A stretch of 64,000 bases of DNA from Gemmatimonadaceae bacterium (GTDB lineage: Bacteria; Gemmatimonadota; Gemmatimonadetes; Gemmatimonadales; Gemmatimonadaceae), in NCBI GenBank assembly GCA_036504815.1, contig DASXUN010000003.1, positions 1 to 64,000 of the forward strand, written 5' to 3'. The notes under the pieces were generated by a model. That model searched no databases. It saw nothing but the letters and a program-made list of their open reading frames with translations, and had not been told where the DNA came from. Every line of letters starts with the position of its first letter. Position 1 is the first letter of the stretch. Both the position numbers and the translations under genes were made by a program. Positions 9,202-48,286 of the stretch are shown in pieces.

Positions 9202-9207
9202 CAGGGC

Positions 9208-10097: not shown

Positions 10098-10105
10098 TCA
10101 AGGCT

Positions 10106-11819: not shown

Positions 11820-11825
11820 GCGACT

Positions 11826-11867: not shown

Positions 11868-12014
11868 GGGGCTGGCATCACCCACCAGTTCCGATGGTAG
11901 CCAGGCAACTACTGGCGAGTTCCGCTGGGCCCCGGGGTCCGTTGGCGGATGGTGGCGGGGAGACCCGTTGCGGGTGCTGACGCTGTACCACTTCACGAAT
12001 CAGGAGTAACGACG

Positions 12015-12284
12015 ATGATGTTCCCCCTGTTGCAGGCCGCTGCGGCCACCAAGGAGTACATGGGTGCGTGGGCGATGATGGGCGCCGGCATTGGCGCTGG
12101 TCTCGCCATCATCGGCGCCGGCCTGGGCATTGGCCGCGTCGGCGGTCAGGCCGTTGAGGGCATGGCCCGCCAGCCGGAAGTCGCCGCCAAGATCCAGACG
12201 GCCGCGCTGATCTTCGCCGCCTTCATCGAAGGCGCCGCGCTGTTCGCCGTGGTCGTGACGTTCCTTATCCAGAGCAAGTTCTAG
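12015..12284 (+). CDS. atpE: ATP synthase F0 subunit c
   Basis: An 89-residue hairpin proteolipid that builds the rotor ring. Helix 1 carries the glycine motif (GAGIGAGLAIIGAGLGIG), the polar loop is ARQPE, and helix 2 has the ion-binding Glu in FAAFIEGAALF (about residue 72). The residues I can check do not show the Gln/Ser signature of sodium-coupled rings, so proton coupling is likely. The ATG at 12015 sits 8 bases after AGGAGT; the upstream in-frame GTG at 11949 is not needed. A stable hairpin follows directly. Confidence 0.96.
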   Translation: MMFPLLQAAAATKEYMGAWAMMGAGIGAGLAIIGAGLGIGRVGGQAVEGMARQPEVAAKIQTAALIFAAFIEGAALFAVVVTFLIQSKF

Positions 12285-12294
12285 GCAGCCTGGC

Positions 12295-12322
12295 GGCCCG
12301 CACGCCCCGGGGTGTGCGGGCC
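12295..12322 (+). terminator. Strong hairpin between atpE and atpF
   Basis: GGCCCGCAC (12295-12303) pairs with GTGCGGGCC (12314-12322), a 9-bp perfect stem with a short GC-rich loop that can pair further. No T run follows, so full termination is unlikely. It is placed to stabilise the upstream atpE mRNA end or reduce read-through, which would help make many c subunits per complex. Confidence 0.6.
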
Positions 12323-12355
12323 CGCCGACCCCTCCTCTCCTGACACCCAGTTCCC

Positions 12356-12931
12356 ATGCGTTCCTTCTTGATCCGCGCCCTGACGCTCGTCGCCGTTGTC
12401 GCCATGCCGGCGTTCGCCAGCGAGGCGGAAGCCCCCAAGGGCGGCCTGCTGTCGCCGGCCGGCGGCCTGATGTTCTGGACGGTGCTGGTCTTTGCGATCC
12501 TCTTCTTCGTCCTCTCCAAGTTCGCGTTCAAGCCGATCCTCGCCGCCGTGGAAGGGCGCGAGCAGGAGCTGCGCGAGACGATGGACCAGGCGAAGGCCGA
12601 TCGCGAGCTGGCCGCGCAGCTGCTCGCCGAGCAGAAGCAGCAGCTCGAAGCGGCCCGCGCGGACGCGCAGAAGATCATCGCCGACGGGCGCGCGACCGCC
12701 GAGAAGATGCGCGCCGACCTGATGGAGCACACGCGCACGCAGCAGGCCGACATGCTCGAGCGCGCCAAGCGCGACATCGAGTCCGAGAAGCAGGGCGCCA
12801 TCGCCGAGCTGCGCCGCGAGGCGGTGGACCTGGCGATCGCCGGCGCGAGCAAGGTGATCGAGAAGAACCTCGACGACGCCTCCAACCGCGCGCTCGTCGA
12901 CAAGTACCTCGCGGCCATCGGGTCCAAGTAA
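12356..12931 (+). CDS. atpF: ATP synthase F0 subunit b, with signal peptide
   Basis: Subunit b is the peripheral stalk of ATP synthase. The 191-residue product begins with a signal-like segment (MRSFLIRALTLVAVVAMPAFA), then the membrane helix (LMFWTVLVFAILFFVLSKFA), then a long charged coiled coil (EGREQELRETMDQAKADREL onward) and ends AAIGSK. Length without the leader is near 165, normal for the family. The stop shares a base with the atpH start (TAATG), so the two are coupled. Confidence 0.93.
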   Translation: MRSFLIRALTLVAVVAMPAFASEAEAPKGGLLSPAGGLMFWTVLVFAILFFVLSKFAFKPILAAVEGREQELRETMDQAKADRELAAQLLAEQKQQLEAARADAQKIIADGRATAEKMRADLMEHTRTQQADMLERAKRDIESEKQGAIAELRREAVDLAIAGASKVIEKNLDDASNRALVDKYLAAIGSK

Positions 12932-19873: not shown

Positions 19874-19930
19874 TCGCGATCTCGCGCGCGCCCGGGTACT
19901 TTTTTCGGGTCCTGAGTGTGGGAGATCGTC

Positions 19931-21316
19931 GTGTCACACGCCTCTGATGATCGCGCGGGCCTGACCCGCCGCGACTTGCTGAAATCGGCCGCCTTCGCGG
20001 GCGCGGCCCTTGGCGCCTCCGGCGCCGTCTTCCCCGCGATCGCCGAGTCGGTGTCGGCGGGCGCCCATCCTGACGAGGCGCCGCCCGCCCCCGCGTGGGC
20101 GAAGACCATGAAGGGCGTTCCGTTCGAGCGCCACGAGACGGTGCGCATCGCGATCGTGGGGACGGGCCTGCGCGGCCGCTCGGTGCTGCACGAATTTCTC
20201 GGCTGTCCCGGCGTGCGGGTCACCGCGCTCTGCGACAACGTCGCCGACAAGGCGCAGAAGGCCGCCAAGATGGTGACCGATGCGGGCCAGCCGGCGCCGG
20301 CGCTGTTCACCGACGGCGATCGCGCGTTCGAGCAGCTGGTGCTTCGCGACAACATCGACTTCATCCACACGGCGACGCCGTGGGAATGGCACGTGCCCGT
20401 GATGCTGGCCGCGCTGAAGGCGGGCAAGCACGTGTCGAGCGAGTGCCCGTTCGCGATGACGCTCAAGGACCTGTGGGAGCTGGTGGACGCGAGCGAGAAG
20501 TACCGCCGGCACTGCCTGCAGCTCGAGAACTGCAACTACGGCTACAACGAGATGCTGGTGAACCGCATGGTGCACGCCGGCGTGCTCGGCGAGCCGCTGC
20601 ACGGCGCGGCCGCGTACCTGCACGACCTGCGGGGCATCGTGTTCGAGGACCGCGACGAGGGGCTGTGGCGGCGTCGGTGGCACACCACCAACAATGCCAA
20701 CCTGTACCCCACGCACGGGCTCGGCCCGGTGGCCTGGTATCTCGACGTCCACAAGGGCGACAAGTTCGAGTTCATGGTGTCGATGAGCACCGAGGAGCGC
20801 GGGCTGACGCTCTATCGCGACGAGACGGTGAAGGACAAGTCGAACCCGAAGTGGCAGGAGAAGTACATCACGGGCGATCTCAACTCGTCGCTGATCAAGA
20901 CGGCGAAAGGGCGCACGATCCTGCTGCAGCACGACGTCTCGAACCCGCGGCCGTATTCGCGCCTCAACGCGATTCAGGGAACCAAGGGCATCTTCGAGGA
21001 TTACCCGGCGCGCATGTACGTCGATGGCCAGGCGGGCGGCGAGCGGTACACCAACCTCGATCCGTGGAAGAAGGACTACGAACATCCGCTGTGGACCCAG
21101 CTCGGCGAGCAGGCGCGCAAGGGCGGGCACGGCGGGATGGACTTCGTGATGGCGTGGCGCCTGGTCCAGTGCCTGCGCGAAGGGTTGGTGCCCGACATCG
21201 ACGTGTACGACTCGGCGGCCTGGAGCGCGCCGTTCCCGCTGAGCGAAATTTCGGTGGCCAAGGGATCGGCGCCGGTGAAATTCCCCGACTTCACGCGCGG
21301 CAACTGGAAAGCCTAG
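19931..21316 (+). CDS. Tat-exported Gfo/Idh/MocA oxidoreductase of GH109 type
   Basis: A 461-residue protein. The Tat signal is TRRDLLKSAAFAGAALGASG, so the folded NAD-bound enzyme goes to the periplasm. The Rossmann start is VRIAIVGTGLRGRS. ICTPWEWHVP-like TPWEWHVPVMLAALKAGKH, LENCNYGYNE and YPTHGLGPVAWYLD match the GH109 group, NAD-dependent alpha-N-acetylgalactosaminidases that work by transient oxidation. GTG at 19931 is chosen because GGGAG lies in front; another in-frame GTG is at 19916. It opens a run of transport and sugar-activation genes, which fits release of an amino sugar outside the cytoplasm. GH109 relatives with other specificities exist. Confidence 0.85.
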   Translation: MSHASDDRAGLTRRDLLKSAAFAGAALGASGAVFPAIAESVSAGAHPDEAPPAPAWAKTMKGVPFERHETVRIAIVGTGLRGRSVLHEFLGCPGVRVTALCDNVADKAQKAAKMVTDAGQPAPALFTDGDRAFEQLVLRDNIDFIHTATPWEWHVPVMLAALKAGKHVSSECPFAMTLKDLWELVDASEKYRRHCLQLENCNYGYNEMLVNRMVHAGVLGEPLHGAAAYLHDLRGIVFEDRDEGLWRRRWHTTNNANLYPTHGLGPVAWYLDVHKGDKFEFMVSMSTEERGLTLYRDETVKDKSNPKWQEKYITGDLNSSLIKTAKGRTILLQHDVSNPRPYSRLNAIQGTKGIFEDYPARMYVDGQAGGERYTNLDPWKKDYEHPLWTQLGEQARKGGHGGMDFVMAWRLVQCLREGLVPDIDVYDSAAWSAPFPLSEISVAKGSAPVKFPDFTRGNWKA

Positions 21317-21330
21317 CCCGATCGCCTGCG

Positions 21331-21365
21331 GTCTCCCGTCTTCCGTCTCCTGTTTCCCGTCTTTC
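21331..21365. repeat. Five tandem GTCTCCC heptamers next to a start codon
   Basis: GTCTCCC, GTCTTCC, GTCTCCT, GTTTCCC and GTCTTTC run up to one base before the ATG at 21367, so no Shine-Dalgarno is present. On the other strand the unit is GGGAGAC. The same units occur inside the coding sequence at 60648-60682 in reverse orientation. Confidence 0.8.
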
Positions 21366-21366
21366 A

Positions 21367-23142
21367 ATGACCTTCGCCAGAATCGACTGGATCATCATCG
21401 CCGCCAGCATCATCATCTCGTTCCTGCCGGCGATCTTCTTCGCGCGGCGGGCGAGCCAGAACACGGCGGAGTTCTTCACATCGGGACGGGCCGCCCCGTG
21501 GTGGCTGGTCGGCATCTCGATGGTCGCCACAACGTTCTCCACCGACACGCCGAACCTCGTCACCAACATGGTGCGCGAGAAGGGCGTCGCCGAGAACTGG
21601 GCCTGGTGGTCGTTCCTGCTGACGGGAATGATGACCGTGTTTTTCTACGCGCGACTCTGGCGGCGCTCCCGCGTGCTGACCGACCTCGAGTTCTACGAGA
21701 TTCGGTACTCAGGCAAGGCGGCGCAGGCGGTGCGCGGCTTCCGCGCCATCTACCTGGGGCTGTTCTTCAACTGCTTCATCATGGCGACGGTGAACCTGGC
21801 CGCCGCGAAGATCGGCAACATCGTGCTGGGCTGGCCCACGTGGCAGACGCTCCTCGTCTGCTCCGTCATGACCATCTTCTTTGCGTCGGTGTCGGGGCTG
21901 TGGGGGGTGCTCGTGACCGACTCGCTGCAGTTCGGCATCACGATGACGGGCGCCTTTGCGGTGACATATTTCGCCCTGAAGCAGCCGGAGATCGGCGGCC
22001 TCAGCGGGCTGTTCGCCAAGGTGCCGGCGGAGTCGCTGCACATGCTGCCGGACTTCGGCAACTGGTCGTCGGCGCTGGTGGTGTTCATCATCCCGATCAC
22101 CATCCAGTGGTGGTCGGTCTGGTATCCGGGCGCCGAGCCGGGGGGCGGCAGCTACATCGCCCAGCGGATGCTGGCGTCGAAGAGCGAGAAGGACGCCGTC
22201 ATCGGCACGCTGCTCTTCAACGTCATGCACTACGCGCTGCGCCCGTGGCCGTGGATCCTCACTGCGCTGGCGTCGACGATCATCTATCCGCAGCTCAGCG
22301 ACATCGGCAAGACGTTCCCGTACGTGGACCCGTCGCTCATCGGCCACGACATGGCCTACCCGGCGATGATGAAGTTCCTGCCGGCCGGTTTCCTGGGCCT
22401 GGTGGTGGCGGGAACGCTGGCCGCGTACCGGTCGACGATCGAGACGCACCTGAACTGGGGCACGTCGTATCTGGTGCACGATTTCTACCGGCGCTTCCTC
22501 AAGAAGGACGGCACCGAGAAGCACTACGTGCTCATGGGACGGCTCACGACCGCCGGGCTGATGGTCTGCGCGGTGGGGTTCTCGTACCTGCTGGGGACGG
22601 CCAAGGAGGCCTTCGAGCTGATTCTCTCGGTGGGCGCCGGCACGGGCCTGCTGTACCTGCTGCGCTGGTTCTGGTGGCGCATCAACGCATGGAGCGAGAT
22701 CTCCGCGATGATCGGCTCGTTCGTGGTGGCGCTTGGCTTCTTCATCGCGCGGCGCTCCGGTGTGGAGATCTCGGCCACGACGTCGCTGCTCATCACGGTG
22801 GCGAGCACGACGGTCATCTGGGTGTCGGTGACGCTGATGACGCAGCCCGAGGACCGCGCGACGCTGGTGAAGTTCTACCAGCTGGTGCGGCCGACGGGCC
22901 CGGGCTGGAAGCCGATCGAGGCGGACGCAGGCGTCGGCGGGTCGCTCGACGGGCTGCCGCAGTCGCTGCTGGGCTGGGTGCTGGGGTGCAGCTTCGTCTA
23001 CTCGGCGTTGTTCGGGGTCGGCAGCTTCCTGTATGGTCACATGCCGCAGTTCTATGCGGCGCTGGCAGTCTTTGCGGGTTCTGGCTACGGCGTGTACCGG
23101 GTGCTGCAGGGATTCTGGACGGAAGGCGCGGACCCGAACTGA
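21367..23142 (+). CDS. Sodium:solute symporter family transporter (sugar operon)
   Basis: A 591-residue SSS-type carrier in the inner membrane with about 13-14 hydrophobic helices. DWIIIAASIIISFLPAIFF, the glycine-rich sodium-site region FSTDTPNLVTN and the helix GVLVTDSLQFGITMTGAF are typical. QWWSVWYPGAEPGGGSYIAQRM is shared almost unchanged with the second SSS gene of this window at 38876, so the two are paralogs. Its place after the GH109-like gene and before a nucleotidyltransferase and sugar kinase suggests import of the released sugar. The 5' end abuts heptamer repeats and has no visible ribosome site. Confidence 0.88.
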   Translation: MTFARIDWIIIAASIIISFLPAIFFARRASQNTAEFFTSGRAAPWWLVGISMVATTFSTDTPNLVTNMVREKGVAENWAWWSFLLTGMMTVFFYARLWRRSRVLTDLEFYEIRYSGKAAQAVRGFRAIYLGLFFNCFIMATVNLAAAKIGNIVLGWPTWQTLLVCSVMTIFFASVSGLWGVLVTDSLQFGITMTGAFAVTYFALKQPEIGGLSGLFAKVPAESLHMLPDFGNWSSALVVFIIPITIQWWSVWYPGAEPGGGSYIAQRMLASKSEKDAVIGTLLFNVMHYALRPWPWILTALASTIIYPQLSDIGKTFPYVDPSLIGHDMAYPAMMKFLPAGFLGLVVAGTLAAYRSTIETHLNWGTSYLVHDFYRRFLKKDGTEKHYVLMGRLTTAGLMVCAVGFSYLLGTAKEAFELILSVGAGTGLLYLLRWFWWRINAWSEISAMIGSFVVALGFFIARRSGVEISATTSLLITVASTTVIWVSVTLMTQPEDRATLVKFYQLVRPTGPGWKPIEADAGVGGSLDGLPQSLLGWVLGCSFVYSALFGVGSFLYGHMPQFYAALAVFAGSGYGVYRVLQGFWTEGADPN

Positions 23143-23155
23143 TGAGCGTTCGCTG

Positions 23156-23974
23156 ATGCGCACCACGCAGGCGGTGATCCTCGCGCGCGGCCTCGGCTCC
23201 CGGATGCGGCGAGCCGAGGCCGCGGTGGCGTTGGATGCGGCGCAGGAGCGGGCGGCCACCGCCGGACAGAAGGGGATGATGCCGACGCTCGGGCGGCCAT
23301 TTCTCGACTTCGTGCTGTCGGCGCTCGCCGACGCGGGCGTCACGGACGTGACGCTCATCGTCGCGCCCGATCATTCGCTGATGCGCGACTATTACGAGCG
23401 GCAGTCGCCGCCGCGGCGCGTGCGATTGCGCTGGGCGGTGCAGGCGGACCCGCGCGGCACGGCAGATGCGGTGCTCGCCGCCGCCGGGCACGTCAACGAC
23501 GCGCCATTCCTGGTGCTCAACTCCGACAACTACTATCCGGTGGCCTCGTACGACGCCCTCTGCGCGCTGGGCGGCGCGGGGCTGGTGGCGTACGAGGGTG
23601 AGGCGCTGATTCGCGACGGGAACATCGACCGCGAGCGGGTGATGGCCTACGCGCTGCTCGACATCGATGCCGACGGCGTGCTGCGCGCGATCGTCGAGAA
23701 GCCCGCCGCCGATCATCCATTGGCGCAGCGCGCCGAGCGGTGGGTGAGCATGAACCTGTGGAGCTTCACGCCGCGCATCTTCGAGGCGTGCCGCCGCGTG
23801 ACGCCGTCGGTGCGCGGCGAGCTGGAACTGCAGGATGCCGTGATGATCGCGGCCCACGACCTGGGCGAGACCTTCCACGTCGTTCGTGCGCACGCCGGTG
23901 TGCTGGACCTGTCGCGCCGCGCTGACGTGGCCACGATCGGCGACCACCTGCGCGGGGTCACGGTTCAGCCGTGA
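23156..23974 (+). CDS. Sugar nucleotidyltransferase-like protein
   Basis: A 272-residue cytoplasmic protein of the NTP-transferase fold. The nucleotide loop is AVILARGLGSRM rather than the usual AGGxGTR, then a long insert of about 30 residues (AEAAVALDAAQERAATAGQKGMM) leads to PTLGRPFLDFVL. FLVLNSDNYYP is the metal site and AIVEKPAADHP the later Lys region. The substitutions make substrate and even activity uncertain. It is followed by a GTGA overlap with a GHMP kinase, so kinase product (sugar-1-phosphate) is the natural substrate. Confidence 0.78.
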   Translation: MRTTQAVILARGLGSRMRRAEAAVALDAAQERAATAGQKGMMPTLGRPFLDFVLSALADAGVTDVTLIVAPDHSLMRDYYERQSPPRRVRLRWAVQADPRGTADAVLAAAGHVNDAPFLVLNSDNYYPVASYDALCALGGAGLVAYEGEALIRDGNIDRERVMAYALLDIDADGVLRAIVEKPAADHPLAQRAERWVSMNLWSFTPRIFEACRRVTPSVRGELELQDAVMIAAHDLGETFHVVRAHAGVLDLSRRADVATIGDHLRGVTVQP

Positions 23975-25200
23975 CCTGGCGCTACCGCACGCCGGGGCGC
24001 ATCGAGCTGGTCGGCAAGCACACCGACTATGCGGGCGGCCCGTCGCTTACCTGCGCGACGCCTTTTCACATGCATGCGAAGGCGGAACCGATCGCGGAGC
24101 CGGTCGTGCGCGTGCACGACCAGCGCAGCCGGGCCACGATGGAGGTTCCGCTGGCGCGTGAGGCCTCGCTTACGGGGCCGCGATCGTCGGTGTATGTCGC
24201 GGCGGTGGCGCGGCGTATCGCGCGCGACTTCCCGGCGGCACGCGCGGGGGTGGCCATTTCACTCGGCTCGTCGATTCCGACGGCCATGGGGATGAGCAGT
24301 TCGAGTGCGCTCGTCATCACCATCGCGATGGCGGTCTTCGATGCCAACGCGCTCTGGACATCGTCCGAATGGTCGTCGGTGGCCGGAGACGAACTCGCGT
24401 TCGCGCAGTATTGCGCGGCGATGGAGAGCGGTGCGGCGTGGGGACCGTTCGCGGGCGACACGGGTGTGGGAACGCGCGGCGGGGCGCAGGATCACATCGC
24501 CATCTGCGCCTCGCACGCGAAATCCGTGGCAGCGTTCGCGTATCTCCCCGGACGGCTGGTTCAGCGCGTGCCGTGGCCGGACGGCTGGCACCTGGTCGTG
24601 GCGACGAGCGGCGTGAAGGCGACGAAGACCGGGAATGCGATGCACGCGTACAACCGTGTCGCCGATGCGGTGCGCGCGCTCGTCGCGGTGTGGAACGCCG
24701 ACACCGGCCGCGCCGACGGCACGCTGTCCGAGATCCTGCATTCGGCTCCCGGCGCGTTCGATCACGCGCTCTCGCTGGTGGACCGCGCGGCGGGTGAATG
24801 GATGAGCGCCGACTACCTGCGTGAGCGGGTTCGACAGTACCGCGAGGAGACGACGGTCATCGTGCCGGGAATGGTCGACGCCATCGCGCGCGGCGACGCG
24901 GGCGCCGCCGGCGCGTTGATGCAGCGGTCGCAGGAGATGGCGGAGCAGGCGCTGCAGAATCAAGTGCCGCAAACCGTCTGGCTGGCCGCGCATGCGCGGG
25001 AGCATGGCGCAGTGGCGGCGACGGCATTCGGGGCCGGGTTCGGCGGCGCCGTGTGGGCGCTCGTCGCGGAGGGAGATCCGGAGCGGATGGCGCACGAGTG
25101 GATGCGGGCGTTCACCGCGGTGCCCGGCTTCGGCGGTTCGCATCGGGAAACCGCGCGCGTGCTGGTGCCGGCCGAAGGTGCCACGCGGGGGGCGGCATGA
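23971..25200 (+). CDS. GHMP kinase, galactokinase-like
   Basis: A 409-residue sugar kinase. PGRIELVGKHTDYAGG is the galactokinase signature with Lys in place of the usual Glu (GEHTDY), and SIPTAMGMSSSSALVI is the ATP loop. GGAQDHIAIC and AFGAGFGGAVWALV complete motifs 2 and 3. It should phosphorylate the anomeric hydroxyl of a hexose. Start GTG overlaps the previous stop, and its own stop overlaps the MFS start. Galactose, N-acetylgalactosamine or a related sugar are all possible; context with a GH109-like enzyme favours the amino sugar. Confidence 0.85.
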   Translation: MTWRYRTPGRIELVGKHTDYAGGPSLTCATPFHMHAKAEPIAEPVVRVHDQRSRATMEVPLAREASLTGPRSSVYVAAVARRIARDFPAARAGVAISLGSSIPTAMGMSSSSALVITIAMAVFDANALWTSSEWSSVAGDELAFAQYCAAMESGAAWGPFAGDTGVGTRGGAQDHIAICASHAKSVAAFAYLPGRLVQRVPWPDGWHLVVATSGVKATKTGNAMHAYNRVADAVRALVAVWNADTGRADGTLSEILHSAPGAFDHALSLVDRAAGEWMSADYLRERVRQYREETTVIVPGMVDAIARGDAGAAGALMQRSQEMAEQALQNQVPQTVWLAAHAREHGAVAATAFGAGFGGAVWALVAEGDPERMAHEWMRAFTAVPGFGGSHRETARVLVPAEGATRGAA

Positions 25201-38875: not shown

Positions 38876-40687
38876 ATGACCCTTGCACGCATCGACTGGT
38901 TCATCGTCGCGGTCTACTTCCTGCTGAGCCTTGGCGTCGGGCTCATGTTCACCCGGCGGGCGTCGCGCTCCACGGAGAACTACTTCCTCGCCGGGCGCAC
39001 GGTACCGTGGTGGCTGGCCGGCGTTTCGATCGTCGCCACGACGTTTGCGTCCGACACGCCGCTGCTCGTCACCGGCATCACGGCGCGCGGCGGCATCGCG
39101 GGGAACTGGATCTGGTGGGCGTTCGTGCTGTCGGGAATGCTCACGGTCTTCTTCTTCGCCCGCCTCTGGCGCCGCTCGGGCGTGATGACCGACGTCGAGT
39201 TCGTCGCCATCCGCTACTCGGGCCGCCCGGCGCACTTCTTGCGCATCTTCCGCGCCGTCTACCTCGGCCTGCCCATCAACGCCATCATCGGCGGCGCGGT
39301 GACGCTGGGGATGATCAAGGTTCTCAAGTCCACCACGGGCATCGACGAGTGGACGGCGGTGCTGGTCTGCATTGCGGTGACGGCACTGTACTCGACGCTC
39401 GGCGGTTTCATGGGCGTGCTGTGGACCGACTTCTTCCAGTTCCTGCTTGCCATGGCGGGATCGGTGGCGCTGGCGGTCTTCGCCGTGGGCGCGGTCGGCG
39501 GACTGAGTGGGCTCCAAAGTGGACTGGTGCAGGTGCACGGCGATGCGGCCACGTCGCTCCTGACCTTCTTTCCGCGCACGGACGGCGCGTACCTGCCGCT
39601 CATCACGCTGGCCGTCTTCCTCTCGGTGCAGTGGTGGTCGGCCGTCTATCCCGGCGCCGAGCCGGGGGGCGGGGGCTACGTGGCCCAGCGGATGTTCGCC
39701 TCGAAGGACGAGAAGTCGTCGCTTCTGGCCGTGCTGTCGTTCAACATCCTGCACTACACCGTGCGGCCGTGGCCGTGGATTCTCACCGGGCTCGCGTCCA
39801 TGGTGTTCTACGCCGGGAACGCCGCGGTCACGGCCGATCCCGAGCTGGGCTACGTCAAGATGATGACTGACGTCCTGCCGCACGGATGGCGCGGCGTGAT
39901 GCTCGCCGCGTTTGGCGCGGCCTACATGTCCACCATTTCCACCCAGCTCAACTGGGGGGCGTCGTACCTCGTCAATGACCTGTACCGGCCATACATACGG
40001 AAGGACGCGAGCGAGCAGCACTACGTGGCCATCTCGCGCGTGGCCTCCGTCATCATCATGGTCCTCAGCGCACTCGTCGCGCTCCGGCTCGGGCGGGTGA
40101 CGCGCGCGCTCGACATCCTGCTGTCCATCGGGGCAGGCACGGGCCTTGTCTTCATTCTCCGTTGGTACTGGTGGCGCGTGAGTGCGTGGTCGGAGCTCTC
40201 GGCCATGGTGGCGGCGACCGCGACGTCGCTCATCCTGCAACTGGCGGTGGGTCCGGAGGGACTCGGACTCGGCACGACCGGGCGCGATTCGCAGATCTTC
40301 TTTGCCTATTCGATCCTCATCACCACGGCGGTGGTGACCGTCGTCTGGCTGACGGTGACGTTCGTGACCCCGCCCACCGACGAGCAAACGCTGGTGTCCT
40401 TCTTCCGGCGGACGCGCCCCTCGCGCCGGGGGTGGGAACACATTGCGGCGCTCGCCCCGGACGTACAGGTTGAGCGCACCGGCTGGGTGCCGCTTGGACA
40501 ATGGGTGCTGGGTTGCCTCACCGTCTACCTGTCGCTCTTCGGGATCGGTGAGTTGCTGCTTGGCGGTTCGATCCGTGGCCTCCTGCTCATTGCGGCCTCA
40601 CTACTGTGCGGATGGGGCATCCTCCATTCGTTGCGCGACCGTGAGGCGCTGCCGCCGTCTGCCACGCCTGACTCCTCAGTGCCATGA
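38876..40687 (+). CDS. Sodium:solute symporter heading the corrinoid methyltransfer operon
   Basis: A 603-residue SSS carrier with about 13-14 helices. ARIDWFIVAVYFLLSLGVGL, FASDTPLLVTG, LGGFMGVLWTDFFQFLLAMA and QWWSAVYPGAEPGGGGYVAQRM are typical and match the paralog at 21367. Its stop overlaps the ATG of the corrinoid protein, so it is translated with a cobalamin methyl-transfer system. That suggests the solute could be the methyl donor (for example a methylated amine or methoxylated compound). Substrate cannot be read from sequence. Confidence 0.88.
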   Translation: MTLARIDWFIVAVYFLLSLGVGLMFTRRASRSTENYFLAGRTVPWWLAGVSIVATTFASDTPLLVTGITARGGIAGNWIWWAFVLSGMLTVFFFARLWRRSGVMTDVEFVAIRYSGRPAHFLRIFRAVYLGLPINAIIGGAVTLGMIKVLKSTTGIDEWTAVLVCIAVTALYSTLGGFMGVLWTDFFQFLLAMAGSVALAVFAVGAVGGLSGLQSGLVQVHGDAATSLLTFFPRTDGAYLPLITLAVFLSVQWWSAVYPGAEPGGGGYVAQRMFASKDEKSSLLAVLSFNILHYTVRPWPWILTGLASMVFYAGNAAVTADPELGYVKMMTDVLPHGWRGVMLAAFGAAYMSTISTQLNWGASYLVNDLYRPYIRKDASEQHYVAISRVASVIIMVLSALVALRLGRVTRALDILLSIGAGTGLVFILRWYWWRVSAWSELSAMVAATATSLILQLAVGPEGLGLGTTGRDSQIFFAYSILITTAVVTVVWLTVTFVTPPTDEQTLVSFFRRTRPSRRGWEHIAALAPDVQVERTGWVPLGQWVLGCLTVYLSLFGIGELLLGGSIRGLLLIAASLLCGWGILHSLRDREALPPSATPDSSVP

Positions 40688-41337
40688 CGGATCTCCATGC
40701 ACTCGCGCAGCACCTCATCGACGGTCACGATGCCGACGTGGCGCGCCTCACGCGCGAAGCGCTCGATGCCGGCCAGGCGCCGGCCGACATTCTCGAGCAG
40801 GGGCTGATCGCCGGTATGCAGGTGGTGGGCGAACGCTTCCGCGACAACATCATCTTCGTGCCTGAGGTGTTGGTGGCGGCGCGCGCGATGAAAGCGGGGC
40901 TCGCCCACCTTGAACCGGTCCTCGCCGCCTGCGGCATCGAGCCGGTCGGGACCTTCGTCATTGGAACGGTCAAGGGCGATATCCACGACATCGGCAAGAA
41001 CCTGGTCGGGATGATGCTCAGGGGCGCCGGCTTCAAGGTCGTTGACCTGGGCGTCAACACGCCGCTCGCGAAGTTCGAGGCCGCCATCGCCGAGCACCGT
41101 CCGGAGATCGTCGGCATGTCGGCGCTGCTGACGACGACCATGGGGCAGATGAAGGTCAACATCGACGCCTTCCGTGCGGCGGGGCACCTCGAGCGCATGC
41201 GCGTGATGGTGGGCGGCGCCGCGGTCTCGGAAGACTACGCGATGTCGATCGGCGCGCACGGGCACGGCAAGGACGCCCCGTCCTCGGTGACCGGCGCCCT
41301 CGCGCTGCTGGCCGAGGTGAAGGCGACGCGCCGGTGA
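40684..41337 (+). CDS. Corrinoid-binding methyltransferase protein (MtbC/MetH B12-domain type)
   Basis: A 217-residue cobalamin carrier. The N-terminal helical cap (LTREALDAGQAPADILEQGLIAGMQVVGERF, described in parts) has the family pattern EVLVAARAM. The B12 motif GDIHDIGKN gives the axial His at about 101, followed by VDLGV and later MSALLTTTM and VMVGGAAVSE. It shuttles a methyl group between two methyltransferases as methyl-Co(III). The start overlaps the symporter stop and its stop overlaps the activator start. Length is normal for stand-alone corrinoid proteins. Confidence 0.93.
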   Translation: MTDLHALAQHLIDGHDADVARLTREALDAGQAPADILEQGLIAGMQVVGERFRDNIIFVPEVLVAARAMKAGLAHLEPVLAACGIEPVGTFVIGTVKGDIHDIGKNLVGMMLRGAGFKVVDLGVNTPLAKFEAAIAEHRPEIVGMSALLTTTMGQMKVNIDAFRAAGHLERMRVMVGGAAVSEDYAMSIGAHGHGKDAPSSVTGALALLAEVKATRR

Positions 41338-43001
41338 GCGTCCGCATCCGGTTTCTTCCGGAGGATCGGTCCACGGTGTCGGACGGGCCGGTGGACCTCT
41401 TCCTTGCCGCCGCGCAGTGCGACATCTGGACCGAGCAGCCGTGCGGCGCGCGGCTGGCGTGCGGCAAGTGTCGCGTGCGGGTGGTGCACGGCGTCGCGAG
41501 GGTGACGACGGCCGATGAACGGTTGCTGACAGCCGCCGAACGTTCGGACGGCTGGCGACTGGGCTGCCAGTTGACGCTCGAGACGGACACGACGCTGCTG
41601 ATCCCGCCGCAGTCGCGCAGCACCGCGGCCAAGTCGTTCGGCGATGCCGCACTGTTCGCGGACGGCATTGAACCGACATTCACGGCGGCGGCCTCGTCGG
41701 CAGGAGCGGGCGCCGAGGATGGAACGCCTTTGTATGGCGTCGCGGTGGACATCGGCTCCACGTCGCTGGCGGCCGCGCTCGTGAACCTCCGCACCGGCGC
41801 GGTACACGGCACGACCTCGCGCGTGAATCCGCAGGTGCGCTACGGCGCCGACGTGATTGCCCGCATTCACCACGCCCAGGAACACGCGGACGGCAACGGG
41901 CAGTTGCACGCCTGTGTGGTGCAGGCCATCGGTTCCATGATCGCCGACCTGACGGTACCCGGGCCGGTGGACGCGTCGCAGGTGATTGCCGTGGCCTGCG
42001 CCGGCAACGCGACCATGACCCACGCCGCCGTTGGCGCCGACATCACCCCGCTGGGCCAGGCGCCGTATTGCGGATCGTTCACCCAAGAGGTCCGGCAATC
42101 CGCGCGATCGTTCGGGTGGCCGGTAAGCGCGGACGCCACGGCGCTGTTCCTGCCGATGGTCGGGCATCATATCGGAGGCGACACGGTCGGCGCGATGCTG
42201 GCCTGCGGCCTCGATCGCGCCGAGGGATGGCAGCTTCTCATCGACCTCGGCACCAACACCGAAGTCGTGCTCGGCAGCACGCGAGGATTGTTTGCCACCT
42301 CCACGGCGGCGGGCCCGGCCTTCGAGGGGGCGAACATCGAACACGGCATGCGCGCCGCGCCGGGGGCAATCGACCGCGTGCGCGTGCTCGCCAACGGCCG
42401 GTTGGTGGTCGGAACCGTCGCCAACCAGCCAGCGCGCGGCATCTGCGGCAGCGGGCTGATCGATGCCGTCGCCGAACTCCATCGCGCCGGCGTGATCGCC
42501 GACAGCGGCTACCTGCGGAGCCGCGCCGAATGCGAGGCCGCCAGCGTGCACACGGCGCTGTTGGGACGGATCATCGAAGAGCCGGCGGCGCCCGGGGCCC
42601 AGCGACGCGTGCGGCTTGACCGCGATGTGACGCTCAGCGCGCAAGATGTACGGCAACTCCAGCTCGTGAAGGGATCCATCGCGGCAGGAATCGCCCTCGT
42701 CCTCGCGCACGCCGGTGTGCGCGCCGACGCGATCGACGCCATCCACATTGCCGGAGCCTTCGGGAGCTTCGTGCGCAAGGAGTCGGTGCAGGCGATCGGA
42801 CTCGTGCCGGCCATCGATCCCGAACGCGTTCACTTCGTGGGGAATGCGGCTGGCGTGGGCACGCGGATGGTGCTGGTGGACGCGCGCCTGCGCGAACGGG
42901 CGCGCCGGATCGCCGAACAGTGCGCCTATCTCGAGCTCGCCGGGCACCCCGATTACCAGGACGCGTTCGTCGCGGCCATCCCCCTCGGAGAGCGGCCGTG
43001 A
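41334..43001 (+). CDS. RACE-type reductive activator of corrinoid protein (2Fe-2S plus ASKHA domain)
   Basis: A 555-residue ATP-dependent activator that returns inactive Co(II) to Co(I). The N-terminal ferredoxin domain has the plant-type set C37, C43, C46 (PCGARLACGKC) and C78 (WRLGCQL). A linker leads to the actin-like part: YGVAVDIGSTSLAAALV (about 135), LIDLGTNTEVVL (about 305), GICGSGLIDAVAEL and AGAFGSFVRKESVQAIG. This is the DUF4445/RamA-like layout that serves O-demethylases and split methionine synthases. The GTG start overlaps the corrinoid gene. It supports the idea that the cobalamin here is used catalytically and gets oxidised at times. Confidence 0.92.
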   Translation: MSVRIRFLPEDRSTVSDGPVDLFLAAAQCDIWTEQPCGARLACGKCRVRVVHGVARVTTADERLLTAAERSDGWRLGCQLTLETDTTLLIPPQSRSTAAKSFGDAALFADGIEPTFTAAASSAGAGAEDGTPLYGVAVDIGSTSLAAALVNLRTGAVHGTTSRVNPQVRYGADVIARIHHAQEHADGNGQLHACVVQAIGSMIADLTVPGPVDASQVIAVACAGNATMTHAAVGADITPLGQAPYCGSFTQEVRQSARSFGWPVSADATALFLPMVGHHIGGDTVGAMLACGLDRAEGWQLLIDLGTNTEVVLGSTRGLFATSTAAGPAFEGANIEHGMRAAPGAIDRVRVLANGRLVVGTVANQPARGICGSGLIDAVAELHRAGVIADSGYLRSRAECEAASVHTALLGRIIEEPAAPGAQRRVRLDRDVTLSAQDVRQLQLVKGSIAAGIALVLAHAGVRADAIDAIHIAGAFGSFVRKESVQAIGLVPAIDPERVHFVGNAAGVGTRMVLVDARLRERARRIAEQCAYLELAGHPDYQDAFVAAIPLGERP

Positions 43002-43234
43002 CCGAGGCGGAACGCACGCGGGCGGCGTTCGCGGCGCTTCAGGCGGTGCTGCGTGACGTGGCGTCGAACGTGGCCGGGAGGATCGAAGAACGCTGTCCGT
43101 ATCGGGCGCGCGACGAGCGCTGTACGTTTGCCGGCGGATGCGTCAACCAGCGCCGCGAGGCGCGACCGAACGCCGAGGATGGATGCTGGATCAGGTGCGG
43201 CGGCGATCAGCAGCTGCGGAGGCGGGGCGAATGA
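42998..43234 (+). CDS. Small Cys-rich protein of the corrinoid operon, unknown
   Basis: A 78-residue protein that starts at a GTG overlapping the activator stop and ends overlapping the next ATG, so it is a true part of the operon. An N-terminal helix (ERTRAAFAALQAVLRDVA) leads to a Cys-rich tail: ERCPYRARDERCTFAGGCVN and DGCWIRCGGDQQL. The five Cys (33, 42, 48, 63, 67) could hold an Fe-S cluster or zinc. I know no family. An electron donor to the activator or a metal chaperone for the zinc methyltransferases are possible roles. Confidence 0.7.
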   Translation: MTEAERTRAAFAALQAVLRDVASNVAGRIEERCPYRARDERCTFAGGCVNQRREARPNAEDGCWIRCGGDQQLRRRGE

Positions 43235-44436
43235 ACGGTCGAGAACGGATGGAGGCCGCGATGCGGCTCGGCGTTCCCGACCGCGTTCCCGTGATGTGCC
43301 AGCTCGCGCTCGGGCACTACTTCCTGCACTCGGGGCTCGACGCCATCGAGATCTGGCACGACACGCCAACCTTCGCCGAGGCGCTCATCCGGCTGCAGCA
43401 GCGCTACGGCTTTGACGGCATCCTGATCAACCTGCCGGGGCGCGACCCGGCGTGGCGCACGGCGATCGCCAGGATCGATGTCCACGGTGACGAGCGGATC
43501 ATCACCTGGAAGAACGGGTGGTACACGGCGGCGCCGCACGACGACAATCCGCACGTCTACCAGGCCGACGGCACGCGGCACTTCCCGGCCTTCGAGGAGA
43601 TCGACCCCGACCGGCTGTTCTATGCGGAACCGCACGACGTCTCCGGCATCACGCATCCGTATTCGTGGGGTTTTGGCGGCGAGCCGGCCGAACCAGGGCC
43701 GGAATTCTTTCCGCCGTGGCATTACGGCACCATCCGAGAAGTCGTGCGCCGGGTCGGACGCGACGTGTCGGTGCATGGCGAGATCTTCTCACCGTTCGCG
43801 CAGTTCATGGAGTTGCTCGATTACACGAACGGCCTGATGGCGCTGATGGATGATCCTGCGAAGGTGCGTGCCTGCCTGGACCGCCTCGCGGACGGCGCCA
43901 TCGAACTCGGCTGCGGCCAGGTGCGGGCGGGGGCGCACGCCGTGCTCATCTCGTCGGCGTTCGCGGGGGCCGGACTGATCTCGCGCGATCACTATGCGCA
44001 GTTCGTGCTGCCGTACGAGCGCAAGGTCATCGATGCGATCCATGCGCGGCATGACGTTCCCATCTACACGCACACGTGCGGCGCCATCGGCGACCGGCTC
44101 GACCTGATGGAGGCGACGCACACGCAAGGCATCGACACCCTCGATCCGCCGCCACTCGGCACGGTGGAGCTGGCCGAGGCCGTGCGGCAGGTGAAGGGCC
44201 GAATGTTCATCAAGGGGAACCTCGATCCGGTGAGCACCGTGCTGTTCGGCACGCCAGACGACGTGCGGGCCGCGGCGCGTGAGCGGTTGCGCATCGCCGG
44301 GCCCGGCGGCGGCTATATCCTGAGCACGGCCTGCTCGGTCTCGCCGGCGGCGCCGCCGGAGAACATCGCGGTGCTGCGCGAGGCGGTGGACGCGTGGGGC
44401 CAGTATGACGGCGCCACGGGGGGACTTCGCGAATGA
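43231..44436 (+). CDS. MtaA/UroD-family zinc-dependent corrinoid methyltransferase
   Basis: A 401-residue TIM-barrel protein of the uroporphyrinogen decarboxylase superfamily. The zinc motif of the methyltransferase branch is present: YTHTCGAIGDRL (His and Cys near 280-282) and TACSVSPAAPPEN (Cys near 367). MEAAMRLGVPDRVPVM is a typical start and FIKGNLDPVSTVLFGTP a typical late strand. It sits between a corrinoid protein with activator and a homocysteine methyltransferase, so methyl transfer is far more likely than haem synthesis. It may load the corrinoid from a methyl donor. Known members act in either direction with thiols or methoxy compounds. The ATG overlaps the Cys-rich gene. Confidence 0.88.
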   Translation: MNGRERMEAAMRLGVPDRVPVMCQLALGHYFLHSGLDAIEIWHDTPTFAEALIRLQQRYGFDGILINLPGRDPAWRTAIARIDVHGDERIITWKNGWYTAAPHDDNPHVYQADGTRHFPAFEEIDPDRLFYAEPHDVSGITHPYSWGFGGEPAEPGPEFFPPWHYGTIREVVRRVGRDVSVHGEIFSPFAQFMELLDYTNGLMALMDDPAKVRACLDRLADGAIELGCGQVRAGAHAVLISSAFAGAGLISRDHYAQFVLPYERKVIDAIHARHDVPIYTHTCGAIGDRLDLMEATHTQGIDTLDPPPLGTVELAEAVRQVKGRMFIKGNLDPVSTVLFGTPDDVRAAARERLRIAGPGGGYILSTACSVSPAAPPENIAVLREAVDAWGQYDGATGGLRE

Positions 44437-45314
44437 CCGAGCGGCTGCTCGACGCACTGCGCCGCGGCGCCACGTTCATCGGCGACGGCGGCATGGGGAC
44501 CGAGTTGCAGCGCGCCGGGCTCGAGGCCGGCGGGTGCGGCGATGCGTGGAACCTGACGCACCCCGAGGAGGTGCAGGCAATCCACCGGCGCTACGTCGAG
44601 GCCGGCGCCGAGGTCATCCTGACGAACACGTTCGGCACGAACCGTTTCGTCCTCTCGCGCTACGACCTTGAGGGGCGTGCGGCGGACATCGCGCGCGCGG
44701 CGGCGATCAACGCCCGCGCGGCGGCGGAGAAGCGCGCGTATGTGCTGGGTGATATCGGGCCGTGCGGTGGCTTTCTCGAGCCGCTCGGCGACATCGGCGT
44801 CGCCGATCTCGCCACGACGTGGCGCGAAGTCATCGCGGCGATGCTCGATGAAGGCGTGGACGGCATCCTGTTCGAGACGATGACTGCGGTTGACGAGATC
44901 ACGCTCGGCATTCGCGTGGCGCGCGAGCTTGGCGCGCCGCTGGTGGCCGCCTCGATGGCGTACGACCCGGTGCGCGGCGGCGGCTTCAAGACGATGATGG
45001 GCGTGTCGCCGGCGGATGGCGCGCGCAGTTGTCTCGCGGCGGGGGCCGACGTGGTGGGGGCGAACTGCGGGCGGATGGAGCCCGAGGAGTTTGCGTCCGT
45101 CGCGATCGAGATCCGCGGGAGCACGGAGGCGCCCATCATCCTGCAGCCGAACGCCGGGCAGCCTCGGCTCGTAGGCGATACGATCGTCTACCCGCGTGAT
45201 CCGGTGTCGCTCGCGCCGGCGCTTGTGGCGCTGACACCCCACGCGGCGATCGTCGGCGGCTGCTGCGGCACGACCCCGTTGCATATCCGGGCCCTCGCCG
45301 ACGCGCTGGGGTAG
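44433..45314 (+). CDS. Homocysteine S-methyltransferase domain protein (MetH N-terminal type)
   Basis: A 293-residue stand-alone homocysteine methyltransferase. FIGDGGMGTELQRAGL and NLTHPEEVQAIHRRYVEAGA are the start of the MetH first domain; the zinc Cys are in VGANCGRM (about 208) and GGCCGTTPLHI (about 278). It lacks the folate, B12 and reactivation domains, which are instead the separate upstream proteins. It should accept a methyl group from the corrinoid protein and form methionine. ATG overlaps the previous stop, and the operon ends here. No terminator is obvious in the 180 bases that follow. Confidence 0.9.
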   Translation: MTERLLDALRRGATFIGDGGMGTELQRAGLEAGGCGDAWNLTHPEEVQAIHRRYVEAGAEVILTNTFGTNRFVLSRYDLEGRAADIARAAAINARAAAEKRAYVLGDIGPCGGFLEPLGDIGVADLATTWREVIAAMLDEGVDGILFETMTAVDEITLGIRVARELGAPLVAASMAYDPVRGGGFKTMMGVSPADGARSCLAAGADVVGANCGRMEPEEFASVAIEIRGSTEAPIILQPNAGQPRLVGDTIVYPRDPVSLAPALVALTPHAAIVGGCCGTTPLHIRALADALG

Positions 45315-45376: not shown

Positions 45377-45496
45377 TGGATATTTCCCTACGGCGTCGTC
45401 GCGTCCCGCCCGTAGCGTAAGCTCATTCTGCTGGCTCCCCCTTCCTGAGGCACGCTGTTGCGGCGGCGTGCGACCGTTTTGCCGTGGGGATACACA

Positions 45497-46105
45497 ATGC
45501 GGATGAGACCAGTCCGGCTGACCATGGCCGGTGCAGCGGTGGCACTGATGCTTGCCGCGGCCTGCCGCCCCGTGGAGGATCATGGGGCGCGGTGGAGCAA
45601 GGCCAGAGGGCCCGCGGCGGTCAAGCCGGCCGAACCGTCGCCCGCGACCAAGGGCGCCAAGGCGACGGAGGTCGCCCGGACGGCGGCGCTGTATCCGGTG
45701 GCACCACCCCCATTCTCGGATGGCGTCTTCCCGTGCTCGGAATGCCACGGCAAGACCGACGTCGTCAACCGGACGCCCCATCCGGTGGAGTTCCACGAAG
45801 ACATCGTGCTGCACCACGATGAGAAGAACCGCTGGTGCCTCGACTGCCACGACGCGCAGAACCGCGACAAGCTCCATCTGGCCGACGGCCGGCTGATCGA
45901 CTTCACCGAGTCGTATCGCCTGTGCGGGCAGTGTCACGGCCCGACTCTGCGGAACTGGAAGGCGGGCGAGCACGGCAAGCGCACGGGGTCGTGGAACGGC
46001 GCCAAGCAGTACCTACTGTGCGCCAACTGCCACAGTCCGCACTCGCCGCATTTCAAGCCGATCAAGCCGAAGCCCGCCCCCATGCGGCAGGAGGCGATCA
46101 AATGA
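45497..46105 (+). CDS. Tetraheme c-type cytochrome lipoprotein
   Basis: A 202-residue exported electron carrier. The signal ends in a lipobox (ALMLAAAC), so it is membrane-tethered outside the cytoplasm. Haem motifs are CSECH (about 76), CLDCH, CGQCH and CANCH, four in all, with extra His (HPVEFHEDIVLHHDE) as distal ligands, typical of NrfB/cytochrome c3-like proteins. It overlaps the Fe-S protein gene by ATGA and starts a three-gene redox module. The start ATG at 45497 (MRMRPVRL) gives the best signal peptide. Confidence 0.9.
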   Translation: MRMRPVRLTMAGAAVALMLAAACRPVEDHGARWSKARGPAAVKPAEPSPATKGAKATEVARTAALYPVAPPPFSDGVFPCSECHGKTDVVNRTPHPVEFHEDIVLHHDEKNRWCLDCHDAQNRDKLHLADGRLIDFTESYRLCGQCHGPTLRNWKAGEHGKRTGSWNGAKQYLLCANCHSPHSPHFKPIKPKPAPMRQEAIK

Positions 46106-47043
46106 GAGAGCTCCCCACGCTCCCGCTGCCGGCGCCCGCGCCGCCGGCCGAGGGCTATTCGCGCCGCGAAGCGCTCGTCATGGGGCTGTTCGCGCTGGCC
46201 GCGGCGGCGACCGCGACCGGTTGCTCCGCCGCCGACAAGCTGGCGTACGAAGAGTTCGTGCAGAAGCACTTCAAGGACCTCTCGCCGGAGGAGCTGAAGG
46301 ACCGGCTGGCCTCGATGGAGAAGCGGTACACGGAGCAGTTCGGCAAGGAGGTGAAGGTCAGCGCCACGCCGCCGATGCCCGGCGTGCTGTTCGGGTACGC
46401 GCTCGACCTGTCGCGCTGCATCGGCTGCCGGCGCTGCGTCTATGGCTGCGTGGAGGAGAACAACCAGTCCCGCGACCCGCAGACGCACTGGATCACGGTG
46501 CTCGAGATGGACAAGGAAGAGGGCGTGAACCTGCAGAATGCGAACGCGTTCTACGACCACGAGACGGTGCCGGCGCCGGGCAAGTTCTACATGCCGGTGG
46601 CGTGCCAGCACTGCGAGAACCCGCCGTGCGTGAAGGTCTGCCCGGTGCAGGCCACCTGGAAGGAGCCGGACGGCATCGTCGTGATCGACTACGACTGGTG
46701 CATCGGCTGCCGCAACTGCATCGCGGCCTGCCCGTACGGCGCGCGGCGCTTCAACTGGGGCAAGCCGTCGATCCCCAAGGACGAACTGAATCCGAACACC
46801 GAGTACCTCGGCAACCGGCCGCGCCAGCGCGGCGTCGTCGAGAAGTGCTCGTTCTGCCTGCAGCGCGTCCGGAAGGGGCTCTATCCGAAGTGCGTCGAGG
46901 TCTGTCCGGTGGGCGCCCGCAAGTTCGGCAACCTGCTCGATCCGGAGAGCGAGATCCGCTACATCATCGAGAACAAGCGCGTGTACATCCTCAAGGAAGA
47001 GCTGAACACGCAGCCGAAGTTCTTCTACTACTACGGGCTGTGA
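46102..47043 (+). CDS. Tat-exported four-cluster ferredoxin of NrfC/DsrO type
   Basis: A 313-residue electron-transfer subunit. SRREALVMGLFALAAAATATGC is a Tat signal that ends in a lipobox Cys (shown here in parts: SRREALVMG, then ATATGC). Cys groups are CIGCRRCVYGC, CQHCENPPCVKVCP, CIGCRNCIAACP and CSFCLQRVRKGLYPKCVEVCP, four 4Fe-4S clusters. Such subunits join a periplasmic partner to an NrfD membrane protein. Here the partner is likely the tetraheme cytochrome just upstream, as no molybdenum enzyme is encoded. The next gene begins 13 bases downstream after GAGGA. Confidence 0.9.
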   Translation: MRELPTLPLPAPAPPAEGYSRREALVMGLFALAAAATATGCSAADKLAYEEFVQKHFKDLSPEELKDRLASMEKRYTEQFGKEVKVSATPPMPGVLFGYALDLSRCIGCRRCVYGCVEENNQSRDPQTHWITVLEMDKEEGVNLQNANAFYDHETVPAPGKFYMPVACQHCENPPCVKVCPVQATWKEPDGIVVIDYDWCIGCRNCIAACPYGARRFNWGKPSIPKDELNPNTEYLGNRPRQRGVVEKCSFCLQRVRKGLYPKCVEVCPVGARKFGNLLDPESEIRYIIENKRVYILKEELNTQPKFFYYYGL

Positions 47044-47056
47044 GGAGGATGCCGAG

Positions 47057-48286
47057 ATGAATGTCCTCAGCAAGTTCGGCAGCTTCGTCACCGGCACCGC
47101 GCGCATGGCCTTCGTGGGCGGCAACCGGTACTACTACGCCTGGCTCGGAGTGCTGGCGCTCTGCATCGTGCAGGCGGTGTTCGCCTTCTCCCACCAGTTC
47201 CAGAACGGCCTCATCGTCACCAACATGCGGGACTCGGTGTCGTGGGGCTATTACATCGGCAACTTCACCTTCCTCGTCGGCGTGGCGGCTGCGGCGGTGC
47301 TGCTCGTCGTCCCCGCCTACGTCTACGACTGGAAGCCGATCAAGGAAGTGGCGCTCTTCGGCGAACTCCTGGCCGTCTGCTCGATCGTGATGTGCCTGCT
47401 GTTCGTGCTGGTCGACATGGGGCGGCCCGACCGCTTCTGGCACATCGTCCCGTTCCTCGGGCGCATGAACCTGCCCGGTGCCATCATGGCGTGGGACGCG
47501 GTGGTGCTCAACATCTACCTCGCCGTGAACCTGGTCGTGGCGAGCTACCTGGTGTACTGCGGCTACCACGGGATCCACTACAACAAGAAGTTCGTCTGGC
47601 CGCTGGTCATCTTCTCGATCCCGATGGCGATCAGCATCCACACAGTGACGGCCTTCCTCTACAACGGCATGGCGAGCCGCCCATACTGGAACAGCGCCAT
47701 CCTCGCGCCGCGCTTCATCGCCTCCGCCTTCTGCTCGGGGCCGGCGCTGCTGCTGATCCTCTTCCAGATCCTGCGCAAGGTGTCGGCGTTCGAGATCAAG
47801 GACGAGGCCATCCACAAGGTGGCCGAGCTGATGGCCTACGCCATGGGCTTCAACCTGTTCCTGTTTGGCGCCGAGGTGTTCAAGGAGTACTACTCCAACA
47901 CGCACCACCTGGTGCACTACGAATACCTCTTTGCCGGACTGCACGGCGAGCCATCGCCGATAGCGCTGTACGCATGGATGTCGCTGGCGTTCGCCGTCAT
48001 TTCGTTCTTCCTCTTCCTGATTCCAAGGACGCGCCGGAACATCGTGACGATGAACATCGGCTGCGTGCTCATCTACGCGTCGGTCTACATCGAGAAGGGC
48101 ATCGCCCTCATCATTCCGGGCTTCACGCCGGACCAGCTGGGGCAGGTCTACGAGTACGTGCCGAGCGCGACGGAACTGCGCGTGGCGGCGGGCGTGTTCG
48201 GCATCGGCTTCCTGCTCTTCACGCTGATGGTGAAGGTGAGCGTGGCGATTCTCTTTGAGCGGCCGCGGGCGGAGGGGGCGCACTAG
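47057..48286 (+). CDS. NrfD/PsrC/DsrP-family quinone-interacting membrane subunit
   Basis: A 409-residue inner membrane protein with about 10 helices, longer than classical NrfD and like DsrP/HmcC. RDSVSWGYYIGNFTFLVGVA and LVDMGRPDRFWHIVPF are typical of the quinone-facing part, and SIPMAISIHTVTAFLYNGMASRPYWNSAI (given here in segments SIPMAISIHTV, NGMASRPYW) matches that family. With the Fe-S and haem subunits it forms a quinol:cytochrome type module. GAGGA precedes the ATG. Heptamer repeats follow the stop. Confidence 0.88.
   Translation: MNVLSKFGSFVTGTARMAFVGGNRYYYAWLGVLALCIVQAVFAFSHQFQNGLIVTNMRDSVSWGYYIGNFTFLVGVAAAAVLLVVPAYVYDWKPIKEVALFGELLAVCSIVMCLLFVLVDMGRPDRFWHIVPFLGRMNLPGAIMAWDAVVLNIYLAVNLVVASYLVYCGYHGIHYNKKFVWPLVIFSIPMAISIHTVTAFLYNGMASRPYWNSAILAPRFIASAFCSGPALLLILFQILRKVSAFEIKDEAIHKVAELMAYAMGFNLFLFGAEVFKEYYSNTHHLVHYEYLFAGLHGEPSPIALYAWMSLAFAVISFFLFLIPRTRRNIVTMNIGCVLIYASVYIEKGIALIIPGFTPDQLGQVYEYVPSATELRVAAGVFGIGFLLFTLMVKVSVAILFERPRAEGAH

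Follow-up and report, generated by a model that had tools for sequence, protein, structure and literature searches.

A six-gene operon in Gemmatimonadaceae as a candidate accessory module for corrinoid-dependent methyl transfer to homocysteine

The first 64,000 nucleotides of contig DASXUN010000003.1 from a Gemmatimonadaceae bacterium (the stretch analyzed here, called the window) contain six open reading frames (ORFs) at positions 38876-45314 of the + strand. They encode a symporter, a corrinoid protein, an activase, a small cysteine-containing protein, a methyltransferase of the UroD superfamily and a homocysteine S-methyltransferase (HMT). This arrangement, referred to as the cassette in the following, raises the question whether it serves as the methionine synthase of the cell, as an earlier note on this DNA had proposed, or whether it works beside the housekeeping enzyme, and which methylated compound it would use. 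We consider it probable that the cassette is an accessory corrinoid demethylation module, fed by Na+ symport and ending in methionine, which would provide an extra salvage route. Pfam and NCBIfam profile searches of the six proteins gave the following assignments:

38876..40687, + strand: SSS-family sodium:solute symporter, 603 aa; PF00474 (SSF), 143 bits; presumed importer of the methyl donor
40684..41337, + strand: corrinoid methyl-carrier protein, 217 aa; PF02607 (B12-binding_2) and PF02310 (B12-binding)
41334..43001, + strand: RACE/RamA-type ATP-dependent reductive activase, 555 aa; PF14574 (234 bits), PF17651 (157 bits) and PF00111 (28 bits)
42998..43234, + strand: small Cys protein, 78 aa; RCPYR-x(5)-C-x(5)-C-x(n)-C; no family match
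43231..44436, + strand: UroD-superfamily zinc methyltransferase, 401 aa; PF01208 (URO-D), 162 bits; presumed donor:corrinoid methyltransferase
44433..45314, + strand: stand-alone HMT, 293 aa; PF02574 (S-methyl_trans), 197 bits; presumed acceptor enzyme

The six-gene operon is genuine. When checking the ORFs of the window we recovered all six at the positions given earlier, and neighboring genes overlap by 4 nt at each of the five junctions (40684/40687, 41334/41337, 42998/43001, 43231/43234 and 44433/44436), reproducing the layout described in the earlier note. The domain searches likewise agree with its statement that the homocysteine and corrinoid functions reside on separate proteins, and its claim that the operon lacks a folate-binding domain held, as neither Pfam nor NCBIfam detected a pterin (folate) domain among the six proteins. 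An Rfam scan of the window returned no matches.

The complete six-gene cassette, its order unchanged, is present in five sister genomes at 72–89% identity (53–61% for the small Cys gene), which is the recurrence the earlier note had suggested looking for in related genomes. All six genes are under purifying selection: the ratio of nonsynonymous to synonymous substitution rates (dN/dS), calculated against two relatives, was 0.12–0.39 for every operon gene, including the small Cys gene (0.35–0.39). In the relatives the 4-nt overlap is not found throughout: 16 of 25 junctions offer an overlapping start, among them 10 of 10 for the RACE/Cys and Cys/UroD pairs. In a sample of 395 genomes of the phylum we found UroD orthologs with 58–86% identity in 12 further genomes, and one additional ortholog in a class sample (G402). 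The source records are mostly metagenome-assembled genomes of Gemmatimonadetes, some of them from groundwater and named water depths. Beyond the phylum, one scan of genome contigs with a single protein as query yielded seven loci, all close relatives (six titled Gemmatimonadetes, one “bacterium”). On plasmids, the nearest UroD homolog had only 25% identity and came from Thiodictyon; it has corrinoid and RACE genes nearby but no HMT.

Outside the genus the gene set varies. UroD, corrinoid protein, RACE and HMT occur together in other families too: G283 has the order corrinoid-RACE-Cys-UroD-HMT without a symporter, and G189 has all six genes spread over about 9 kb. UroD occurs together with SSS in G157 (HMT-RACE, UroD and SSS), in G183 (SSS-UroD-corrinoid-RACE), on a short contig of G402 (SSS-UroD-corrinoid) and partly in G198, where UroD adjoins a symporter fragment. 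Within the genus, 6 of the 11 genomes compared carry an intact cassette, 4 are without the gene and one (G031) retains a collapsed remnant (L047 7794-9698, G031:C36). In this remnant an N-terminal portion of the symporter gene is joined directly to a C-terminal portion of UroD, and the HMT frame is disrupted; a natural deletion or an assembly fault may be the cause. Since the cassette is lost or absent in sister genomes, it appears to be dispensable. The chromosomal neighbors of the cassette are shared among those sister genomes whose flanks could be compared. Directly downstream in the window (45458-48286) lies a respiratory-looking module of CxxCH cytochrome-like, iron-sulfur and membrane proteins, of which the iron-sulfur and membrane proteins are conserved in the same comparable flanks.

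A full metH or metE in the same genome had been named beforehand as an observation that would speak against a methionine synthase, and this is what we found. The genome encodes a complete MetH of 1205 aa with HMT, pterin, B12 and activation domains, next to an HMT-MTHFR fusion. Furthermore, MetH or MetE is present in all 13 carrier genomes (MetE in G157 and G183; the MetH of G123 is a contig-edge fragment), so the loss of metE and metH that the earlier note had suggested looking for was not found, and MetH is likewise present in sister genomes that lack the cassette. The best cassette match to the MetH profile TIGR02082 reaches 151 bits versus 1011, and none of the six proteins has a pterin or Met_synt_B12 domain. 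PF01717, which marks the core methionine synthases MesA-D, was found neither among the six proteins nor elsewhere in the genome. Because all carriers have MetH or MetE, we regard the cassette as accessory to the housekeeping enzyme. The earlier proposal of a folate-independent methionine synthase fed by an imported donor thus survives in its plausible flow of methyl groups from donor to homocysteine, and fails as a replacement of the cell’s own synthase.

How would such an accessory module work? Judging from gene linkage and protein family, the SSS symporter would import a methylated compound. RACE, whose role is established for the family, would use ATP to reduce the corrinoid protein to Co(I). 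The UroD-family protein would then bind the heteroatom of the donor on a His-Cys-Cys zinc site and pass the methyl group to Co(I), as its conserved triad suggests. Finally the HMT, with its intact site and its phylogenetic placement, would activate homocysteine on a Cys3 zinc and take the methyl group to form methionine; the demethylated donor would probably be used or excreted. We regard the order UroD to corrinoid protein to HMT as likely, and this is the part of the proposal in which we have the most confidence.

The HMT has a full Cys-Cys-Cys predicted zinc site (C212, C277, C278), and its best match among solved structures is Thermotoga maritima MetH (1q7m, E 5e-44). In the HMT tree it groups (96/96) with the HMTs of a cluster of MttB, corrinoid protein and RACE in G108 and of a UroD cluster in Gemmatirosa, apart from MetH and the HMT-MTHFR fusion. 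That this clade spans several corrinoid clusters supports homocysteine as a shared methyl sink in the phylum. The corrinoid protein carries the DxHxxG motif as DIHDIG (residues 99–104) and scores 183 bits against the MtgC_2 profile, which is under the cut-off. RACE satisfies the definition of a RACE/RACo activase, with Fer2, Raco_middle and RACo_C_ter domains and a predicted [2Fe-2S] motif of four cysteines (C37/C43/C46/C78). In G183 we also observed two tandem divergent genes of the homocysteine S-methyltransferase family (L065 5758-7679), each with three zinc cysteines.

The nature of the donor is best approached through the UroD protein. Its predicted zinc triad H281, C283 and C368 is invariant in all 13 homologs and aligns with the zinc ligand positions of the Methanosarcina methyltransferase MtaA (4ay7); the earlier description as an MtaA/UroD-type zinc protein is borne out by this alignment. 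TIGR01463 (MtaA/CmuA) is among the best profiles with 105.5 bits, below the cut-off of 235. The AlphaFold model (pLDDT 83, pTM 0.88) matches 4ay8 best (Z 33.9, root-mean-square deviation 2.3 over 317 residues). HemE folds tie with this match, and the function cannot be read from the fold alone. A tree of 44 UroD-family sequences, which was built without reference MtsA, MtpA, CmuA, MtvB or Mlp sequences, places the 13 cassette proteins in a clade of their own (support 100/100) and does not resolve relations between this and other UroD clades. According to Kountz & Balskus, His-Cys-Cys marks the sulfur and selenium methyltransferases of the superfamily, whereas O-methyl enzymes have carboxylates or non-ligands in place of the cysteines (PMC10418091). 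Taken with the triad this rule points to a methyl-thioether or selenoether, and we rate such S/Se-methyl chemistry as having about an even chance. HemE was considered as an identity of this protein and rejected: the TIGR01464 (HemE) score is 66 bits versus a cut-off of 303, and the second of the two URO-D proteins in the genome is a separate HemE (G000:C12), from which the 100/100 clade of the cassette proteins stands apart. Action on porphyrin, which would have spoken against the earlier description, is therefore not indicated.

In the Na2 site of the symporter, Ala and Ser are conserved, with Thr at the third position. Outside the cassette, the nearest relatives of the symporter adjoin either NamZ, NagB/PIG-L, BadF-type kinase and GH3 genes or GH109, galactokinase and nucleotidyltransferase genes. 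The galactose-binding residues of vSGLT are not conserved in the cassette symporter; the relatives from amino-sugar and galactose loci have the same pocket residues, and the argument that the protein cannot carry sugars was dropped because these relatives lack the vSGLT residues as well. Sugars or amino sugars are the probable substrates of this clade. From this gene context the cassette donor may be sugar-like, which we put forward only tentatively. A paralog of the symporter is encoded in the same window (21367-23106), within a stretch of GH109-type oxidoreductase, SSS symporter, nucleotidyltransferase and galactokinase-like genes (19916-25200) that is probably a locus for the use of N-acetylgalactosamine or galactose.

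The small Cys protein, described earlier as a five-Cys protein, does contain five cysteines; four of these (C33, C42, C48, C67) are invariant among eight orthologs and C63 is variable. It is a conserved four-Cys protein without known family: neither Pfam nor NCBIfam gave a match, and its low-confidence predicted fold has no match in the PDB. We found it only in the genus, in G283 and in G189, always directly upstream of UroD.

Altogether the most likely donor would be a methyl-thioether or selenoether, possibly a sugar-like one such as methylthioribose, since the zinc triad and the symporter clade make a methylthio-sugar an attractive candidate. In its specific form, corrinoid salvage of the methyl group of an imported methylthio-sugar (e.g. 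methylthioribose excreted by neighbors) directly onto homocysteine, we hold this to be rather doubtful. If true, methionine would be salvaged by demethylation and not by keeping the whole methylthio group, and the route would rely on a UroD clade and a small Cys-rich accessory protein that are both new.

Several observations weigh against a symporter-fed demethylation of a methylthio compound. MtnA is present in 12 of the 13 carriers (none was seen in G167), so ordinary methylthioribose salvage may already exist; an absence of MtnA, considered as support for a role in methylthioribose use, was thus not found. The zinc-ligand rule is not absolute. The UroD-linked symporters do not form one clade (three label changes), which makes the link between symporter and donor suggestive only, and SSS relatives with 50–54% identity occur in genomes without the cassette UroD, so this link may be loose. 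Moreover, the UroD gene stands without other cassette genes in the sequence examined of G108 and G167, and in G157 it has no corrinoid gene nearby; the proposed wiring is therefore not obligate in cis.

The best surviving alternative is O-demethylation, in which an imported O-methyl sugar or sugar acid would donate the methyl group, again to homocysteine. It is favored by the occurrence of the symporter clade in amino-sugar and galactose loci and by another UroD clade of the phylum, a plausible 4-O-methylglucuronate demethylase, that sits with GH67 alpha-glucuronidase or UxuA, and in Gemmatirosa also with corrinoid, RACE and HMT genes. However, the zinc positions of these sugar-acid UroDs, which make up a clade of their own, are H-D-G, whereas the cassette protein carries H-C-C, which also sets it apart, by description, from the carboxylate or no-zinc sites of the O-demethylases MtvB, OdmB, VdmB and MtoB. 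In addition, none of the genes that recur next to the cassette codes for a carbohydrate enzyme, and we consider O-demethylation unlikely.

The loci of the H-D-G clade deserve mention in their own right. On a Gemmatirosa kalamazoonensis plasmid (L057, 4954-13013) its UroD is accompanied by UxuA mannonate dehydratase, a corrinoid protein, RACE and HMT. In G198 (L093, G198:C1:5435000-5450000, 842-12599) it lies with GH67 alpha-glucuronidase, PfkB kinase, 6PGD and an MFS transporter. Both UroDs are candidate corrinoid O-demethylases of xylan 4-O-methylglucuronate, in Gemmatirosa with transfer of the methyl group to homocysteine. A further locus of G198 (L062, G198:C1:4075000-4088000, 2819-8466) encodes a 586-aa protein in which B12-binding and URO-D domains are fused; it adjoins an SSS symporter and an aldolase-like protein and is possibly another demethylase in a sugar-acid locus.

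Dehalogenation of a haloalkane of the chloromethane type, with UroD taking the methyl group from the halide as CmuA does, appears improbable. In its favor, a repeated origin of haloalkane methyltransferases within the UroD superfamily has been proposed (PMC13222342), and the MtaA/CmuA profile is among the best for the cassette protein. Its score is far under the cut-off, however, and unlike CmuA the protein has no fused corrinoid domain. Moreover, a small volatile halide does not need a Na+ symporter.

Slightly less probable still is a system running in reverse, which would methylate or detoxify thiols, or one acting on methyl compounds of selenium or arsenic with the small Cys protein binding the metal(loid). 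His-Cys-Cys would also fit a thiol as acceptor, type 1 mlp clusters with H-C-C act on methyl-selenium (PMC10418091), and the small protein has its four conserved cysteines. On the other hand, no selenium or arsenic gene was recognized among the recurring cassette neighbors, SelABCD not having been searched for. Transfer of the methyl group from methyl-cobalamin to homocysteine is, furthermore, strongly favored. Finally, the separate HMT and corrinoid domains, RACE instead of a MetH-type activation domain and the missing folate domain would suit a replacement of MetH/MetE as sole enzyme, which is refuted by the MetH or MetE of every carrier, the MTHFR fusion beside MetH and the MetH of cassette-less sister genomes, and to which we accord hardly any probability.

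Returning to the accessory demethylation module, its parts resemble several known systems. MtgBCDE links glycine betaine and methionine synthesis in Ruegeria, Phaeobacter and Sinorhizobium, and it too is found in aerobes and has corrinoid protein, RACE and HMT on separate chains to direct the methyl group of an imported compound into methionine synthesis (PMC12478193). In contrast to the UroD-family H-C-C enzyme of the cassette, its donor enzyme is of the MttB family (PF06253), and it uses a pterin-binding MtgD, whereas the cassette has no pterin protein and its genome retains MetH; neither MtgD nor an MttB-family enzyme was found among the six proteins, no genome-wide search having been made. 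Type 1 mlp clusters share the UroD-family H-C-C methyltransferase, corrinoid protein and RACE and likewise lack a tetrahydrofolate methyltransferase; they differ in having two or three Mlps, no described HMT and obligately anaerobic hosts (PMC10418091). The cassette has one UroD, one HMT, a symporter and the small Cys protein, and with HemE as the only other URO-D protein the genome lacks the at least two Mlps (Mlp2, Mlp3) that define such clusters. MtpCAP of Methanosarcina acetivorans, which acts on methylmercaptopropionate, also combines a corrinoid protein, a methyltransferase (to coenzyme M) and a dedicated transporter, but its acceptor is coenzyme M and its transporter belongs to the MFS, compared with homocysteine and SSS here (PMC7374477).

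Closer at hand, the MttB cluster of G108 (L058 5650-10661: MttB-family methyltransferase, corrinoid protein and stand-alone HMT, with RACE) has the same carrier, activase and acceptor modules, its HMT being 43% identical to that of the cassette; its donor enzyme differs, and there is no symporter in the stretch examined. A comparable set in G198 (L059 4345-8082) consists of MttB-family methyltransferase, corrinoid protein and stand-alone HMT, with a separate protein of the MetH activation-domain type. With MetH the cassette has the HMT and B12 chemistry in common, as well as the closest solved HMT structure; it differs in lacking pterin and activation domains, and its donor would not be methyl-folate. 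The combination with a symporter and the small Cys protein had been unfamiliar in the earlier note. None of the nearest published systems joins UroD, HMT and symporter, and we found no published description of this set in the open-access literature (subscription papers were not covered). The cassette adds a new variation on known corrinoid methyl-transfer modules.

In the Gemmatimonadota, corrinoid protein, activase and HMT appear as a common core onto which different donor enzymes are placed: MttB-type enzymes, UroDs whose zinc site is O-type and the cassette UroD, whose zinc site is thiol-type. If true, a whole set of demethylation pathways would deliver its methyl groups to homocysteine, and not to folate or coenzyme M. 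The bacteria that host these pathways are largely uncultured, and the cassette represents a compact, expressible set of genes for finding the donor.

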